A model generated the notes under the pieces. The model had not been told where the DNA came from. It did no database searches and saw only the letters and a program-made list of their open reading frames with translations. 64,000 nt of DNA. Source: Bacteroidales bacterium. GTDB taxonomy: Bacteria > Bacteroidota > Bacteroidia > Bacteroidales > UBA3824. Of this stretch, positions 497 through 21,486 are shown piece by piece. The position numbers were made by a program, and so were the translations under genes. Position 1 is the stretch's first letter, and each line of letters starts with the position of its first letter. The stretch is from NCBI GenBank assembly GCA_017535325.1, contig JAFXUC010000126.1:1-64000 (forward strand). The letters run 5' to 3'.

Positions 497-527
497 CACC
501 GTCAAAAAAAGAGGTCTTTTGATATTT

Positions 528-612
528 GGAGAGATGGCAGAGTGGTCGATTGCGACGGTCTTGAAAACCGCTGAGGGTAACACCTCCGGGGGTTCGAATC
601 CCTCTTTCTCCG
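528..612 (+). tRNA. tRNA-Ser (anticodon TGA), copy 1
   Basis: An 85-nt class II tRNA. The acceptor stem GGAGAGA pairs with TTTCTCC (one G-T), the anticodon loop is CTTGAAA (TGA), and a long variable arm (GAGGGTAACACCTC) precedes the T arm with GGTTCGAATCC. The discriminator is G612. CCA is not fully encoded, so the end must be added after transcription. The first anticodon-stem pair is an A-C mismatch in both copies. Reads UCN serine codons. Confidence 0.95.
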
Positions 613-638
613 CAAAATGTTCTTTTAAAAAAGATATT

Positions 639-713
639 CGGGGCATAGCGCAGCCCGGTTAGCGTGTCTGCTTTGGGAGCAGAAGGTCGAGAGTTCGAAT
701 CTCTCTGCCCCGA
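639..713 (+). tRNA. tRNA-Pro (anticodon TGG)
   Basis: A 75-nt cloverleaf. Acceptor stem CGGGGCA pairs with TGCCCCG, the anticodon arm CTGCTTTGGGAGCAG gives TGG, and the T loop is GTTCGAATC. The discriminator is A713, with no encoded CCA. It sits between two identical tRNA-Ser genes and is probably on the same transcript. Confidence 0.95.
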
Positions 714-725
714 CAGAAAATTATT

Positions 726-810
726 GGAGAGATGGCAGAGTGGTCGATTGCGACGGTCTTGAAAACCGCTGAGGGTAACACCTCCGGGGGTTCGAATCCC
801 TCTTTCTCCG
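726..810 (+). tRNA. tRNA-Ser (anticodon TGA), copy 2
   Basis: Identical over all 85 nt to the copy at 528-612, including the A-C mismatch at the top of the anticodon stem, which points to a recent tandem duplication across the tRNA-Pro or to gene conversion. The flanks match for only a few bases (TATT before, CAAAA after). Confidence 0.95.
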
Positions 811-898
811 CAAAAAAATTAAACAACATTCTTTTACGTTATTTTCGTATTTCTGAATAATATTTTTCAAAAAATTTTTCTTAATCGGAAAATAGTTT

Positions 899-2664: not shown

Positions 2665-3570
2665 ATGGATAAAATAAAAGTTGCCGTAGTAGGTTACGGC
2701 AATATCGGAAAGTATTCTTTGCAGGCTGTTAAAGCCGCTTCCGATATGGAACTCGCCGGCGTTGTCCGCAGAAAAGAATCCGTAGGCAAAAAATCGCCCG
2801 AACTCGAAGGCGTAAAAGTTGTTTCCGACATCAATGAACTCGGAAAAGTTGACGTTGCAATTCTCGCCGTTCCCTCGCGCGAAATTCCCGTTACGGCAAA
2901 AGCCCTCGTAGAAAAAGGCATTTCAACCGTTGACAGTTTCGACATTCACGGCAAGGACATTCTTGACCTTTACAAATCGCTTGACGCAGCGTGCAAAAAA
3001 TCCGGCGCAAAAGCAATCATTTCGGCAGGCTGGGATCCGGGTACAGACTCGTTAATCAGAACGGTTCTTCTCGCAATGGCTCCCAAAGGCTTGACTTACA
3101 CCAATTTTGGTCCGGGTATGAGCATGGGACACTCGGTGGTTGCCCGCAGCAAAAAAGGCGTTAAAGACGCGCTTTCGATGACGATTCCGCTCGGAACGGG
3201 CGTTCACAGAAGAGACGTTTATGTTCAGTTGGAAGACGGCGCGGATTTCAAAGCAGTTGAAAACGCAATCAAAACCGACTCATATTTCTGTCATGACGAC
3301 ACTCACGTTCACGAGGTTTCCTGTGTCAACGTCCTCCGCGACATGGGACACGGCGTTCTTTTGGAGCGCAAAGGCGTCAGCGGCGAGACTCAGAACCAGA
3401 GATTCCAATTCACGATGCAAATCAACAATCCCGCTTTAACGGGTCAGGTTTTGGCTTCATGCGCACGCGCTGTCGTAAAACAACAGCCCGGCTGTTACAC
3501 TTTGCCGCAAATCGCTCCTTACGATTTGGTAAACATCGACTTGGACGAATTTTTGTTGCACACAGTTTAA
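2665..3570 (+). CDS. ddh: meso-diaminopimelate D-dehydrogenase
   Basis: 301 residues, close to the family length. It reductively aminates L-2-amino-6-oxopimelate (tetrahydrodipicolinate) with NADPH and ammonia to meso-DAP, a one-step route to lysine and peptidoglycan cross-links. The N-terminal Rossmann fold carries VVGYGNIGK (residues 8-16). The substrate-binding stretch SAGWDPGTDS (120-129) and the later GHSVVARSKKGV segment are typical of the family. Start ATG at 2665 gives the expected MDKIKVAVVGYGNIG beginning. A hairpin terminator follows within 25 bp of the stop. Other dap genes are not in view. Confidence 0.93.
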   Translation: MDKIKVAVVGYGNIGKYSLQAVKAASDMELAGVVRRKESVGKKSPELEGVKVVSDINELGKVDVAILAVPSREIPVTAKALVEKGISTVDSFDIHGKDILDLYKSLDAACKKSGAKAIISAGWDPGTDSLIRTVLLAMAPKGLTYTNFGPGMSMGHSVVARSKKGVKDALSMTIPLGTGVHRRDVYVQLEDGADFKAVENAIKTDSYFCHDDTHVHEVSCVNVLRDMGHGVLLERKGVSGETQNQRFQFTMQINNPALTGQVLASCARAVVKQQPGCYTLPQIAPYDLVNIDLDEFLLHTV

Positions 3571-3593
3571 AAAATTCAAAGTGAATTAAATAG

Positions 3594-3630
3594 AAAAAAT
3601 TGCGGGGCTTTTTAACCCTGCAATTTTTTT
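3594..3630. terminator. Bidirectional terminator between ddh and cstA
   Basis: Arms at 3594-3607 and 3616-3630 pair as AATTGCGGGG/CCCTGCAATT with A and T tracts on both sides, so it can end transcripts from either direction. The cstA stop codon (3612-3614) lies inside the loop, so the last codons of cstA are part of the terminator. Confidence 0.8.
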
Positions 3631-5036
3631 TGTCCGTTTTTCCACTTGAAAAACAAAACCATACTTGTTGCCGCACAAACACCGCCTGCACAGTAACTTA
3701 CCATCGGATTCAGAGAGAAACATTCAGGCGCGATAAAAAGATACGTCGAGCAGACAAGCGTCATGTAAACCGCCGGTAAAAACGCCATAATCCACGGCTT
3801 GTTGTTCAAGACCATATAAACCGTTACCGTCCAAAGCGTAAACACGCTTAACGCCTGATTTGACCAGCCGAAATATCTCCAAATAATATTGAAACCAGCC
3901 GCGTCGCTCAGACTGTAAACGATAATCAGAGCCGTTACCGCAAAAATCGGAACGCTGACCATAAGGCGTTTAGAAATTTTTGTCTGGTCGATTTTGAAAA
4001 AGTCCGCAACGATAAGCCTTGCACTGCGCAGTGCCGTATCGCCGCTTGTTATCGGGGCAAAAACCACTCCCAACATCGCTAAAATGCTGCCGATTTTTCC
4101 CATCCAGGTCTCTGTGATAAAATAAACGATTGAAGCCTGAGATTCACCGTAACCTTTTTCTTTGTAAAACCAGATAGCCGCAGCCGCCCAAATCATTGCG
4201 ATAATGCCTTCAAGAATCATTGCGCCGTAAAAAACGGGACGTCCGAGTTTTTCATTTTTAAGACAGCGTGCCATCAGCGGACTCTGTGTCGCATGAAATC
4301 CCGAAATTGCGCCGCAGGCTATCGTTATGCACATAATCGGGAAAATCGGGGTCGTGTCTTTGTTCGGGTGGGAGTTTGCGATACCGTCGGTGATTTCAGG
4401 AAGGTCGATGCCTTGCCAGAGAATCATAAACAAAACGCCTACCGCCATGAAAATCAGCGAGAAAGCAAACACAGGATAGACCTTTCCGATAACTTTGTCA
4501 ATCGGCAGAAGCGTCGCGATTAAGTAATACGCAAAAATGACTATAATCCAAAACGTGTTGTTCATATAGTCGGGCGTAATTTTGTCGAGGATTCCGGCGG
4601 GCTGGCTCACAAAAACCACTCCGACAAGCACCAAAAGCACCACCGTAAAGATTCTCATAACTTGTTTTGTGGTGTTTCCGAGATATTTTCCGATGATGTC
4701 GGGAAGGTTTGCGCCGCCTTCACGGACAGAAATCATGCCGGAAAAAAAGTCATGAAAAGCACCGATAAAAATACAGCCGACAACAATCCAGATGTATGCC
4801 GCCGTTCCGAATTGCGCTCCGAGTATCGCGCCGAAAATCGGTCCGAGACCGGCGATGTTAAGAAACTGAATCATAAAGATTTTCCAAGTCGGCAGCGGAA
4901 TATAATCCACACCGTCCTGCATGGCGTATGCAGGAGTTTTTTTTGAAGGGTCGGGGGCAAAAACTTTTTCGGAAAATTTTCCGTAAAAAACATAGCCCAA
5001 AATAAGCAGACCAATTGCAGTAAGAAATGTTATCAT
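3612..5036 (-). CDS. cstA: Carbon starvation protein CstA family (peptide/pyruvate transporter)
   Basis: 474 residues, nearly all membrane helices (about 12). The N-terminal run VDYIPLPTW...FLNIAGLGPIFGAILGAQFG is the CstA signature, followed by HDFFSGMISVREGGANLPD and GFHATQSPLMARC. CstA proteins take up peptides or pyruvate during carbon starvation. This copy is well short of the ~700-residue E. coli protein, as expected for the shorter Bacteroidota form. It is a single-gene unit: a -7 box lies 23 bp upstream and the shared terminator lies at its stop. Confidence 0.9.
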   Translation of the reverse strand: MITFLTAIGLLILGYVFYGKFSEKVFAPDPSKKTPAYAMQDGVDYIPLPTWKIFMIQFLNIAGLGPIFGAILGAQFGTAAYIWIVVGCIFIGAFHDFFSGMISVREGGANLPDIIGKYLGNTTKQVMRIFTVVLLVLVGVVFVSQPAGILDKITPDYMNNTFWIIVIFAYYLIATLLPIDKVIGKVYPVFAFSLIFMAVGVLFMILWQGIDLPEITDGIANSHPNKDTTPIFPIMCITIACGAISGFHATQSPLMARCLKNEKLGRPVFYGAMILEGIIAMIWAAAAIWFYKEKGYGESQASIVYFITETWMGKIGSILAMLGVVFAPITSGDTALRSARLIVADFFKIDQTKISKRLMVSVPIFAVTALIIVYSLSDAAGFNIIWRYFGWSNQALSVFTLWTVTVYMVLNNKPWIMAFLPAVYMTLVCSTYLFIAPECFSLNPMVSYCAGGVCAATSMVLFFKWKNGQKKLQG

Positions 5037-17947: not shown

Positions 17948-19279
17948 TTAGTCCAAAATTTTACTTGCAATATCCGCCATACGGCTTCTTTCGCCGTGAA
18001 CAAGGTTGATATGCGCGAAAAAATCCTGCCCTTTCATCTTGTCGGCAAGATAAGAAAGACCGTTGGAGCGCAAATCCAAAAACGGTGAGTCAATCTGCTC
18101 AACATCGCCAGTAAAGACAATTTTCGTGCCGTCCCCCGCCCTTGTTATGATGGTCTTAACTTCGTGAGGAGTAAGGTTTTGCGCTTCGTCAACAATAAAA
18201 AACGAACTATTGAGACTACGACCTCTAATGTATGCCAAAGGCGAAACCAAAAGTTTTTCCTCTTTCACCATTTTGTCAATGTTTTGGGAATTTTTGGAAT
18301 TAAGACCAAGAGTAGTTTTTATGACGTTGAGGTTGTCGAAAAGCGGCTGCATATAAGGATTGATTTTTTGCTTTTCGTTGCCCGGAAGATAGCCTAAATC
18401 CTTGTTTCCAAGAGGGACAATCGGTCGCGAAAGAAAAATCTGCATAAACTGTTTTTCTTGCTCCAAAGCCGCTGCAAGTGCCAAAAGTGTTTTTCCCGTA
18501 CCGGCTTTTCCCGTTATGGTAACAAGCGTAATTTCCGGACGCATAAGAGCGTCAAACACAAAAGACTGCTCGGCATTTCTGGGCATTATACCGCTTAAAC
18601 GATGCTTTACAACTTTACAGATTTTGTTGTCCTGCTTGCTGAAATAGCACATCGCATTGGTCTTTTCGTCGCCTAAAAGAAAATACTCATTGGGCGAAAG
18701 TTCCGCCTGAATACCACTTTCCGCCAAATCAATTGAACCGTCGCGGTAAATTTTTGAAACAATTTCGCCCGTAGGCTCTTCGATAAGCCTTACGCCTTGG
18801 AAAAGTCTTTCGGCGTTTTCCACCTTGCCGGTTTTATAGTCCTGAGCCTCAATGCCCAAGGCGCGAGATTTCATTCTGAGGTTAATGTCCTGAGAGACAA
18901 GGATAACGTTTTTTTCGGGATAAGTCGCCTTTTCCCAAACCGCCACGGCAAGAATCTTGTGGTCGGGAATCGGTTCGGAAAACGAAAGTTGCATGTCCTT
19001 AGAAAAAGGTTTGCCGCTTGTGATAAAAAGTTGTCCCCTGCCCTCTCCGAGCGGTATTCCCTTGTTCATGTCGGTATAATTTTCGGTAAGGGAATCAAGA
19101 GTTCTCATAAACTCGCGGGCGTTGAGGTTGATAGTGTCGTTGCCTTTTTTGAATTTGTCCAATTCTTCCAAAACGACAATCGGAACAACCAAATCGTTCT
19201 CCTCAAAATTGTATATACTCCTGAAATCGTGCAAGATAACGTTAGTATCAAGCACAAATGTTTTTTTGTTAGCACTCAT
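17948..19279 (-). CDS. PIN-domain PhoH-family ATPase (PhoH2 type)
   Basis: 443 residues. The N-terminal PIN nuclease domain (about 6-150) has the acidic residues Asp11 (FVLDTNVILHD), Glu39 (VVLEELDKF) and Asp131 (LVSQDINLR). The PhoH ATPase follows (about 225-443) with Walker A GKAGTGKT (257-264) and Walker B FFIVDEAQNLTP. PhoH2 proteins are reported to be sequence-specific RNA helicase-nucleases. Its first place in a unit with a Pif1-like helicase, 3 bp apart, suggests joint nucleic-acid processing. The promoter is probably the TATATTTG at 19317-19324. Confidence 0.9.
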   Translation of the reverse strand: MSANKKTFVLDTNVILHDFRSIYNFEENDLVVPIVVLEELDKFKKGNDTINLNAREFMRTLDSLTENYTDMNKGIPLGEGRGQLFITSGKPFSKDMQLSFSEPIPDHKILAVAVWEKATYPEKNVILVSQDINLRMKSRALGIEAQDYKTGKVENAERLFQGVRLIEEPTGEIVSKIYRDGSIDLAESGIQAELSPNEYFLLGDEKTNAMCYFSKQDNKICKVVKHRLSGIMPRNAEQSFVFDALMRPEITLVTITGKAGTGKTLLALAAALEQEKQFMQIFLSRPIVPLGNKDLGYLPGNEKQKINPYMQPLFDNLNVIKTTLGLNSKNSQNIDKMVKEEKLLVSPLAYIRGRSLNSSFFIVDEAQNLTPHEVKTIITRAGDGTKIVFTGDVEQIDSPFLDLRSNGLSYLADKMKGQDFFAHINLVHGERSRMADIASKILD

Positions 19280-19349: not shown

Positions 19350-19373
19350 TTTTTTCATTTTATCGCTTTTGAG
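19350..19373 (-). repeat. 24-bp direct repeat, left copy
   Basis: Exact copy of 20804-20827 (six T, then CATTTTATCGC, then TTTTGAG). It covers the last codons, stop and 3' flank of the Schlafen-like gene. Here it is read as ..CAA AAG CGA TAA; in the other copy, in a different frame, as ..TCA AAA GCG ATA AAA TGA. Confidence 0.85.
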
Positions 19374-20781
19374 TCAACAGAACTTCCCAATGTCCGTTTT
19401 TATCCGCGCCTATACGTTTGATAAATCCGGCATCTTGCAGTTTTTTCATATTTTTATTGACATGAACCACCGAAATGCCAAGCATTTGCGCAAGTTCAGA
19501 CTGGGTTGTTTTTGGATTTTCCTTCAAAGCGGAAATGATGCGCTGTTGCGTTACATTAACCTTTACATTAACCTTTACATTAACCCCTTCATCAACCTTT
19601 GCATTAACCTTTTCTGCAAATTCCACAAAACCGTCCACTTTCAGTTCCTTTGCAAGTTTCAGATACGATTCGCTTGCGGGACATTCCACCGAAAGCCCTC
19701 CGGTGTTGACTTCGGGAACGGGGACTTTGGATTTCGACTCGTCGCAAAGCCGCATTATCTTGTTGTAACCGCGTCCCCAGGCTTCTACATAGCCGCACCT
19801 GAAAAAGACATTCGCAATGTTTGGATTCCTCGGCACGGAGCGGTGCGCTTTAAACAAATCTTCCAACGTTAAATCCGGCGGCATACTGCCATAGTTCCAA
19901 ATGTTGATTTTGTCGCGGAAAACCTGAATCTGTATGGGCGTAGGCTGCATATAATCCTTGTGAATGACGGCGTTCAAAAGCAATTCGCGGAAAGCCTCAG
20001 GCGGGAAAAAATACGTTTCTCGCCTCGTGATTCCCTCGTAACTGATAAGAGCCTTCATATATTTGGTGTAAATAATTTCCATTGAACGCTCAACCTGTTC
20101 CAAAAGCGAGCCGTGAACCTCGTCTTGATAAAGAATGTCAGCATCGTTTTCAAAATAGGCAATTTTTATAAACGCGCAGGTAAACCATTTTTCGGGGTCG
20201 GAATGAAACACGAGCACTGCGGCTCGTGTAAGATATTGATTTTCGTAACAATGCAAGTTTTGCAACAAATCTTCGCGGCTTACTGCCAAATCTTCCTCGC
20301 TCAAACGGTGGCGTTGCAAGGCTTTGCGCTTAAAAATCTTGAAAGCCGTCTCGTCTAAATCCTCAGCCCTGACATACGGAACGGGAACGCTATCCCAAGT
20401 CCTCCCCTGAACCCCAAGTATCATTTTGTCAAGTTCAAAACCTGTAACTTCCTGAGTAGTAGAGCCTGAACGTTTGTAATATTTGCCGTGATAACTTACG
20501 GGAAAAGGATATTTTTCCACAACGATTTGAAGATAATCTTTGCCTTCGTCCCCGTGAAGGTTGACGGCGCAAATAAGTCCCATCGTGTGCAAAATTTTGT
20601 TAGGAATATCCTCGCAAAGCCGTTTGCTGTTAGGTATTCCGCAAACCTTACCCGAATCGTCAACACCGACATAAAGCACTCCGCCGTTAGTATTGGCAAA
20701 GGCGCAAACCCATTTCAAATAATCGTCTTTCCAAGACTGTTTAAACTCCGTATGCTGGCTTTCAGACTTTTGTAACTGCAT
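19360..20781 (-). CDS. Schlafen/AlbA-type ATP-binding protein with winged-helix tail
   Basis: 473 residues. The N-terminal AlbA_2 (Schlafen-type) domain (about 1-125) shows ESQHTEFKQSW, FANTNGGVLYVGVDDSGKV and YPVSYHGKYYKRSGS-like features. A middle GHKL-like region (about 230-345) has FPPEAFRELLLNAVIHKDY and VEAWGRGYNKI, as in HATPase_c_4 regulators. The C-terminal winged helix (about 420-470) has TQSELAQMLGISVVHVNKNM. Such proteins are seen as transcription regulators and in mobile or defence contexts. A five-unit 12-bp repeat codes a KVNx linker before the HTH. No promoter is evident; it lies 27 bp after the SGNH gene on the same strand and is bounded by 24-bp direct repeats. Confidence 0.8.
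   Translation of the reverse strand: MQLQKSESQHTEFKQSWKDDYLKWVCAFANTNGGVLYVGVDDSGKVCGIPNSKRLCEDIPNKILHTMGLICAVNLHGDEGKDYLQIVVEKYPFPVSYHGKYYKRSGSTTQEVTGFELDKMILGVQGRTWDSVPVPYVRAEDLDETAFKIFKRKALQRHRLSEEDLAVSREDLLQNLHCYENQYLTRAAVLVFHSDPEKWFTCAFIKIAYFENDADILYQDEVHGSLLEQVERSMEIIYTKYMKALISYEGITRRETYFFPPEAFRELLLNAVIHKDYMQPTPIQIQVFRDKINIWNYGSMPPDLTLEDLFKAHRSVPRNPNIANVFFRCGYVEAWGRGYNKIMRLCDESKSKVPVPEVNTGGLSVECPASESYLKLAKELKVDGFVEFAEKVNAKVDEGVNVKVNVKVNVTQQRIISALKENPKTTQSELAQMLGISVVHVNKNMKKLQDAGFIKRIGADKNGHWEVLLTQKR
19551..19610 (-). repeat. Five 12-bp tandem units inside the Schlafen-like gene
   Basis: Units of TTACATTAACCT at 19551, 19563 and 19575 are nearly perfect, and those at 19587 and 19599 are diverged. 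They code a K-V-N-V/A linker. As 12 is a multiple of three, changes in copy number alter linker length but not frame. Confidence 0.8.
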
Positions 20782-20803
20782 TTTAATTCAAAATTTGTAT
20801 CAC

Positions 20804-20827
20804 TTTTTTCATTTTATCGCTTTTGAG
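20804..20827 (-). repeat. 24-bp direct repeat, right copy
   Basis: Exact match to 19350-19373, 1454 bp away. It spans the final codons and stop of the SGNH hydrolase gene. The segment between the copies holds only the Schlafen-like gene. Confidence 0.85.
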
Positions 20828-21486
20828 ACTTGGGTTGCGATTGCTTTCATGCCTTTTGCGGTAGGGTGTCCCCAACGCTTCTCAATGTTTTCGAGTTGAA
20901 TGTATTTTATGCCGTAATGCTTGCAAATTTCAATTGTTGACTCCGTGATGTCGCGGCGCAGTTCGCTGTTAATGATGAAATAAACATCAACGTTGGGATA
21001 GCGCGAAATGGTTTCTTCCAAAAGTTTTGCCAATGCGGGACGGTAAAAATAAAGGTCGCCGCGCTTAAAATCCGAATATTGGTACTCACCCGTTTTTACA
21101 CCCGCCCAACTGTCGTTGGTACAGCCGAAAATCAGCAGAATGTCAGGACTCCCGACCCTCGGCAGACGGGTTATGAAAGAGCGCGGTGAATAGTCGTCGT
21201 CGTTGTAACCCGTGTAAGAAATTGTCGCGCCGCTGTAAGACTCGTTTTTTTCAAGAAGATAACCGCCGTCTTTTATAAGTTGCCACCACCAGGTCTGACG
21301 GACACTCAGGACATCGGAGCGCGAAGTGTCAATTTTCTGAAAATACCAAGGCTCGTTGCCTTCGGGAATATAACCTTCAAAGGTCGAATAAGAATCGCCG
21401 AGAACCGAAATTCTCTGTTTTGTCTGCGCCGAAAGCGTCTGAAAAAACAGGCACGCCGGCAATAATAAAGTCAAAAATTTTTTCAT
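20809..21486 (-). CDS. Secreted SGNH/GDSL-type hydrolase
   Basis: 225 residues with a cleavable signal peptide (about 1-20, ending SAQ). SGNH blocks are present: block I VLGDSYS (nucleophile Ser in GDS), block II Gly in SYSGATIS, block III IFGCTNDSW (Asn), and block V WGHPTAKGM with the catalytic His. Enzymes of this fold remove acyl or acetyl groups from carbohydrates and lipids; the substrate is not clear here. The gene is divergent from the hybrid two-component regulator. Its 3' end coincides with one copy of the 24-bp repeat. Confidence 0.82.
   Translation of the reverse strand: MKKFLTLLLPACLFFQTLSAQTKQRISVLGDSYSTFEGYIPEGNEPWYFQKIDTSRSDVLSVRQTWWWQLIKDGGYLLEKNESYSGATISYTGYNDDDYSPRSFITRLPRVGSPDILLIFGCTNDSWAGVKTGEYQYSDFKRGDLYFYRPALAKLLEETISRYPNVDVYFIINSELRRDITESTIEICKHYGIKYIQLENIEKRWGHPTAKGMKAIATQVSKAIK

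Follow-up and report, generated by a model that had tools for sequence, protein, structure and literature searches.

A Schlafen-type gene behind an SGNH hydrolase gene in a Bacteroidales genome: probable insertion with a 24-bp target duplication that also supplies a stop codon

Background

The locus described here raises the question of how a single accessory gene came to lie between two conserved genes of a Bacteroidales genome. In the window, the whole analysed stretch of 64,000 nucleotides, a Schlafen-like gene is bounded by a 24-bp direct repeat, and an initial annotation made from the sequence had interpreted the segment as a small mobile cassette, lacking its own integrase, that had entered at a gene's 3' end. 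The features discussed below are as follows.

17948-19279, minus strand: PIN-PhoH gene, the conserved downstream flank
19350-19373, minus strand: second 24-bp copy, read as the duplicated target, where the Schlafen-like gene meets the PhoH promoter, the original flank on that side
19360-19373, minus strand: tail of the inserted protein that comes from the host (part of T470, followed by Q, K, R and the stop), encoded by the duplicated SGNH end; identified from homologue ends
19360-20781, minus strand: inserted gene of 473 aa with AlbA_2 (Schlafen), HATPase_c_4 and winged-HTH domains; supported by Pfam, fold match and dN/dS
19374-20803, minus strand: inserted unique segment of 1430 bp, absent from related genomes G014 and G006
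20804-20827, minus strand: first 24-bp copy, the native SGNH hydrolase 3' end (last codons, TGA stop and five further bases), homologous to the SGNH 3' ends in G014 and G006
20809-21486, minus strand: SGNH/GDSL hydrolase gene (Pfam PF16255), the target, left intact; conserved in G014, G008 and G006

Results and discussion

A unique 24-bp repeat at two gene ends

Both copies of the repeat (19350-19373 and 20804-20827) have the sequence TTTTTTCATTTTATCGCTTTTGAG in the same orientation, lie 1454 bp apart from start to start and enclose the Schlafen-like gene alone, in agreement with the initial annotation. The order on the minus strand is SGNH gene, 24-mer, Schlafen-like gene, 24-mer and PIN-PhoH gene. 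The right copy contains the end of the SGNH reading frame, with its final codons and its TGA, and the left copy that of the Schlafen-like gene, with its final codons and its TAA; the two are read in different frames, as had also been described. These were the only two places matched by the 24-mer in the whole 3.72-Mb genome when up to 3 mismatches were allowed, and it is therefore not a common intergenic repeat. Shuffled windows gave no matches, also with 3 mismatches, and no evident dyad was seen in the 24-mer. In a test for repeats placed tightly at the start and stop of 528 ORFs from many genomes, the Schlafen-like gene scored 24 and the runner-up 12. Elsewhere in the window (526-815), a tRNA-Pro(TGG) gene lies between two identical 92-nt copies of tRNA-Ser(TGA).

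Empty sites and a different occupant in related genomes

The PhoH gene was used as an anchor to survey 59 related genomes for empty sites. In G014, which belongs to the same genus and has a 98% identical PhoH, and in the more distant G006 (PhoH 87-88% identical), the SGNH gene, ~70-77 bp and the PhoH gene follow one another on a single contig, so that the SGNH gene leads straight into the PIN-PhoH promoter. These are the empty sites that the initial annotation had anticipated, and the gene is thus not shared by all close relatives. When the 1430-bp unique segment was deleted from the window together with one of the 24-mers, the empty site was restored and aligned colinearly with G014 and G006, which bears out the insertion at a gene 3' end. 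The two 24-mers are identical to each other (24/24), yet 4 of 24 bases differ from the G014 site (20/24 identical) and the G006 copy is more diverged; such a pattern is expected if one target molecule gave rise to both copies.

Since the site is empty both in G014, which is the closest of the relatives searched, and in G006, which is more distant, the ancestral site was most simply empty and the gain recent. In G008 (PhoH 95% identical), ~1.9 kb between the SGNH and PhoH genes are occupied by an AAA_15 ATPase gene and a 171-aa ORF on the other strand, with no flanking repeat around them; the ATPase has weak similarity to several defence ATPases. The history of the spot is most simply explained if the ancestor was empty and genes were gained twice independently, once in the window genome (G000) and once in G008. 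Among the related genomes searched, no other was found to carry this Schlafen gene here. The second Schlafen gene of the window genome lies between Lgt and inositol monophosphatase genes, where relatives have an empty site, and has no flanking repeats.

Two further arrangements were seen at these neighbour genes. The SGNH gene of G007 (L127) has a different neighbourhood, and the gene behind it also looks like an AAA ATPase. Upstream of the PhoH gene in G001 and G009 (L044 and L047) is a short divergent AlbA_2-like gene of 226-250 aa, recognised by eye from its N-terminus, whose placement is unrelated although its recurrence is curious.

The inserted gene and its C-terminus

The Schlafen-like gene is intact, and no transposase or integrase gene is present within the insert. 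Its AlbA_2 domain scored 63.1 bits against a curated Pfam cut-off of 25.3, and the predicted structure (mean pLDDT 84.7) matched 3lmm and, more weakly, SLFN12 and SLFN11. In domain order and fold the protein resembles AlbA_2/Schlafen regulators with a winged-HTH tail (PF04326, PF13749 and PF13412; solved relative 3lmm), from which it differs in C-terminal residues that are encoded by host-derived codons. Judged by its domains, it is probably a regulator that binds ATP and either DNA or RNA. A 12-bp tandem repeat of 5.2 copies (19551-19612) encodes the linker NVKVNVKVNV of this protein and could vary in length.

When 84,980 genomes were searched, the nearest homologues were 63-72% identical and came from ruminant and other metagenome records labelled Bacteroidales, uncultured bacterium and Treponema. 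Comparison with the homologue L082 gave a dS near saturation, a dN of ~0.19 and a dN/dS of ~0.12, which indicates that the protein family is under purifying selection. No full-length match was found to described anti-phage defence families, with pAgo-type and HTH models matching partially. A scan of IMG/VR viral sequences found nothing, and relatives in plasmid and phage records were all below 60% identity.

The homologues L082 and L084 end in GHWEVLGQ and LWEVLGQ, respectively, each followed by the stop, and the window gene ends in GHWEVL-LTQKR and the stop. Comparison of these ends indicates that the native end of the inserted gene has been lost and that its final codons and stop come from the duplicated end of the SGNH gene, in a frame other than that of SGNH. 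DNA homology with L082 opens at the ATG and closes at the last native codons, so the inserted unit would be essentially a naked gene. The ends of the insert were placed from homologues only ~73% identical in DNA, and no donor locus carrying the same gene with a known 3' flank was found. Residues 470-473 are predicted to be disordered, and the altered tail is therefore likely harmless. A literature search that was not thorough returned no description of a stop codon borrowed from a duplicated target.

Insertion with target duplication

The most probable origin of this arrangement is a one-off insertion of a gene-sized foreign fragment, with target duplication, between the SGNH and PIN-PhoH genes. 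Staggered opening of a target followed by fill-in is the usual origin of such duplications. Foreign DNA of about the size of a gene and carrying an AlbA_2/Schlafen-type gene would have entered between the two genes, where the two target strands were probably broken at points 24 bp from each other at the SGNH 3' end. Filling in of the single-stranded ends would then have left one 24-bp copy on each side; we infer the staggered break, its fill-in and the identity of the machinery. If the incoming fragment had been cut at the end of its reading frame or a few bases short of it, the copied SGNH end, in another frame, would have provided the last codons and stop. The SGNH gene has stayed intact, and the new gene follows it after 27 bp in the same direction, a position in which it may be co-transcribed from the SGNH promoter.

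The process itself has been described, and this locus is a clean example of it. Insertion of gene units with long, variable target duplications was reported from two Helicobacter pylori genomes, mainly for restriction-modification genes (Nobusato et al. 2000, as summarised in PMC1643837, PMC3031569 and PMC4978471). As in those cases, an accessory unit is present in one of two related genomes with a direct target duplication and no visible transposase. The window genome carries the gene, G014 and G006 are empty with colinear flanks, the target repeat stands at both ends of the insert with a single homologous copy in the empty sites, and the insert holds no mobility gene. Unlike in the Helicobacter cases, the unit is one Schlafen-type gene, the host belongs to the Bacteroidales, and the 24-bp duplication provides the stop codon of the inserted gene.

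Flanking repeats at other loci

Flanks were also compared at other loci. Direct repeats with a score of at least 24 were found at 14 of 108 Schlafen genes versus 1 of 224 neighbouring ORFs. Flanking repeats were further found at 5 of 28 DUF4143 and 4 of 27 Fic genes, and at none of 37 core genes or 47 other window ORFs. These rates are rough, given the small samples and the use of the best-scoring family members as control loci. The idea of a family-wide Schlafen cassette, suggested by the first comparison, was dropped once the DUF4143 and Fic controls (9/55 together) had removed its specificity, and flanking direct repeats seem to mark accessory genes generally in this order. Their frequency at accessory genes and rarity at core genes was counted in favour of target duplication, and the missing repeats at the G008 occupant and at the second Schlafen gene of the window genome were counted against it.

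The clearest parallel was L082, in which an alcohol dehydrogenase gene precedes the Schlafen gene and 71 bp of the dehydrogenase 3' end recur behind the Schlafen gene at 87% identity. The Schlafen gene of L084 is 97% identical to that of L082 over the first 1.3 kb and still has ~80 bp of the dehydrogenase end on its 5' side, at a different place. On inspection, a good part of the 14 Schlafen cases proved to be tandem Schlafen remnants (L104, L134, L111, L157 and L180) or simple repeats such as the minisatellite at L167, and not duplicated targets. A 17-bp junction repeat at L083 (15/17 identical) is at chance level as 10 of 528 ORFs score as high. A preference for landing directly behind a co-directional gene is not a property of the Schlafen family.

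Other observations were made at these loci. Fic and DUF4143 genes at L237, L238, L251, L218 and L223 have exact or near-exact flanking direct repeats of 43-123 bp, that of L238 being a terminator-like hairpin, and at L078 (1-1544) the promoter and initial codons of a Schlafen gene stand on both sides of a 393-aa ORF as 84-bp copies with 94% identity. Between L082 (5001-6395) and L084 (603-2078) the gene bodies share ~97% DNA identity, the winged-HTH modules differ and the last 18 residues converge, a swap of the HTH module. On contig C117 of the window genome (~3129-3808; L003, L231), which carries a Fic gene, a stretch ~200-500 bp past the Fic domain match has 69% DNA identity to the winged-HTH tail of the window Schlafen gene, hinting that HTH tails may be common to unrelated accessory proteins.

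Alternative origins of the locus

Integrative elements at gene 3' ends use tyrosine-recombinase att sites, and the present locus shares with them the insertion at a gene 3' end, the exact direct repeat and the preserved target gene. It might thus be a very small cassette, non-autonomous and integrated by a recombinase acting in trans, with a 24-bp attP core that matches the SGNH 3' end, and three tyrosine recombinases are encoded in the genome outside this contig; attB and attP sites sharing a 24-bp core would give the same picture as a target duplication. Site-specific integration is nevertheless an unlikely origin, as the core must match this SGNH gene end exactly and, unlike in such elements, a single gene is present with no recombinase on the contig and no recurrent core. 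The suggestion that the 24-mer might recur elsewhere was not borne out, with no third copy in the genome and unrelated repeats at other Schlafen loci, including that of an unrelated gene end at L082; the repeat itself has no evident dyad. The absence of a tyrosine recombinase from the contig, of any other gene from the insert and of any further 24-mer favours target duplication over an att core. Of the reading originally proposed, the insertion at a gene 3' end is supported; a re-usable site-specific cassette is not, given also that repeats are equally common at unrelated accessory genes, and the repeat is better read as a target duplication that also supplied the stop codon of the inserted gene.

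The insertion spot is best read as resembling a minimal mobile element site. Minimal mobile elements (Saunders and Snyder 2002) are variable cassettes between conserved genes, and cassettes between conserved flanks have been described in Neisseria (both as cited in PMC4269198). The same conserved genes enclose the Schlafen gene in G000, the AAA_15 pair in G008 and nothing in G014 and G006. Arrival of the gene by homologous recombination in these flanks, from a strain that already carried it with an older repeat, is distinctly unlikely, since such exchange accounts for spread rather than for the origin of the repeat and the same gene was found at this place in no second genome. The definition of minimal mobile elements includes no exact target duplication, which is present here, and with a single other occupant the genomes are too few to show exchange by flank homology. 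The locus has the tested features of insertion with long target duplication together with the anatomy of a minimal mobile element. An assembly artefact that joined the gene in through a shared 24-mer is very improbable even in a draft of 140 contigs, because a single mis-join cannot yield copies at both sides and the donor DNA would already need the 24-mer, an SGNH gene end, on both sides of the gene.

Conclusions

With insertion by target duplication as the preferred reading, the locus is a clean snapshot, in a gut-type bacterium, of how a single gene without a mobility enzyme can land without harm to its target, the copied site both sparing the neighbour and completing the reading frame of the newcomer. 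It is possible rather than probable that the Bacteroidales have a general, undescribed route by which single accessory genes (Schlafen, Fic, DUF4143-type and others) are inserted with target duplications of ~20-200 bp and no insert-encoded enzyme, the duplications often lying at gene ends and repairing the ends of incoming genes. The presence of flanking direct repeats at about one in seven accessory genes from three families in this order, against none of the 37 core-gene loci, suggests a route of gene gain that can be surveyed.
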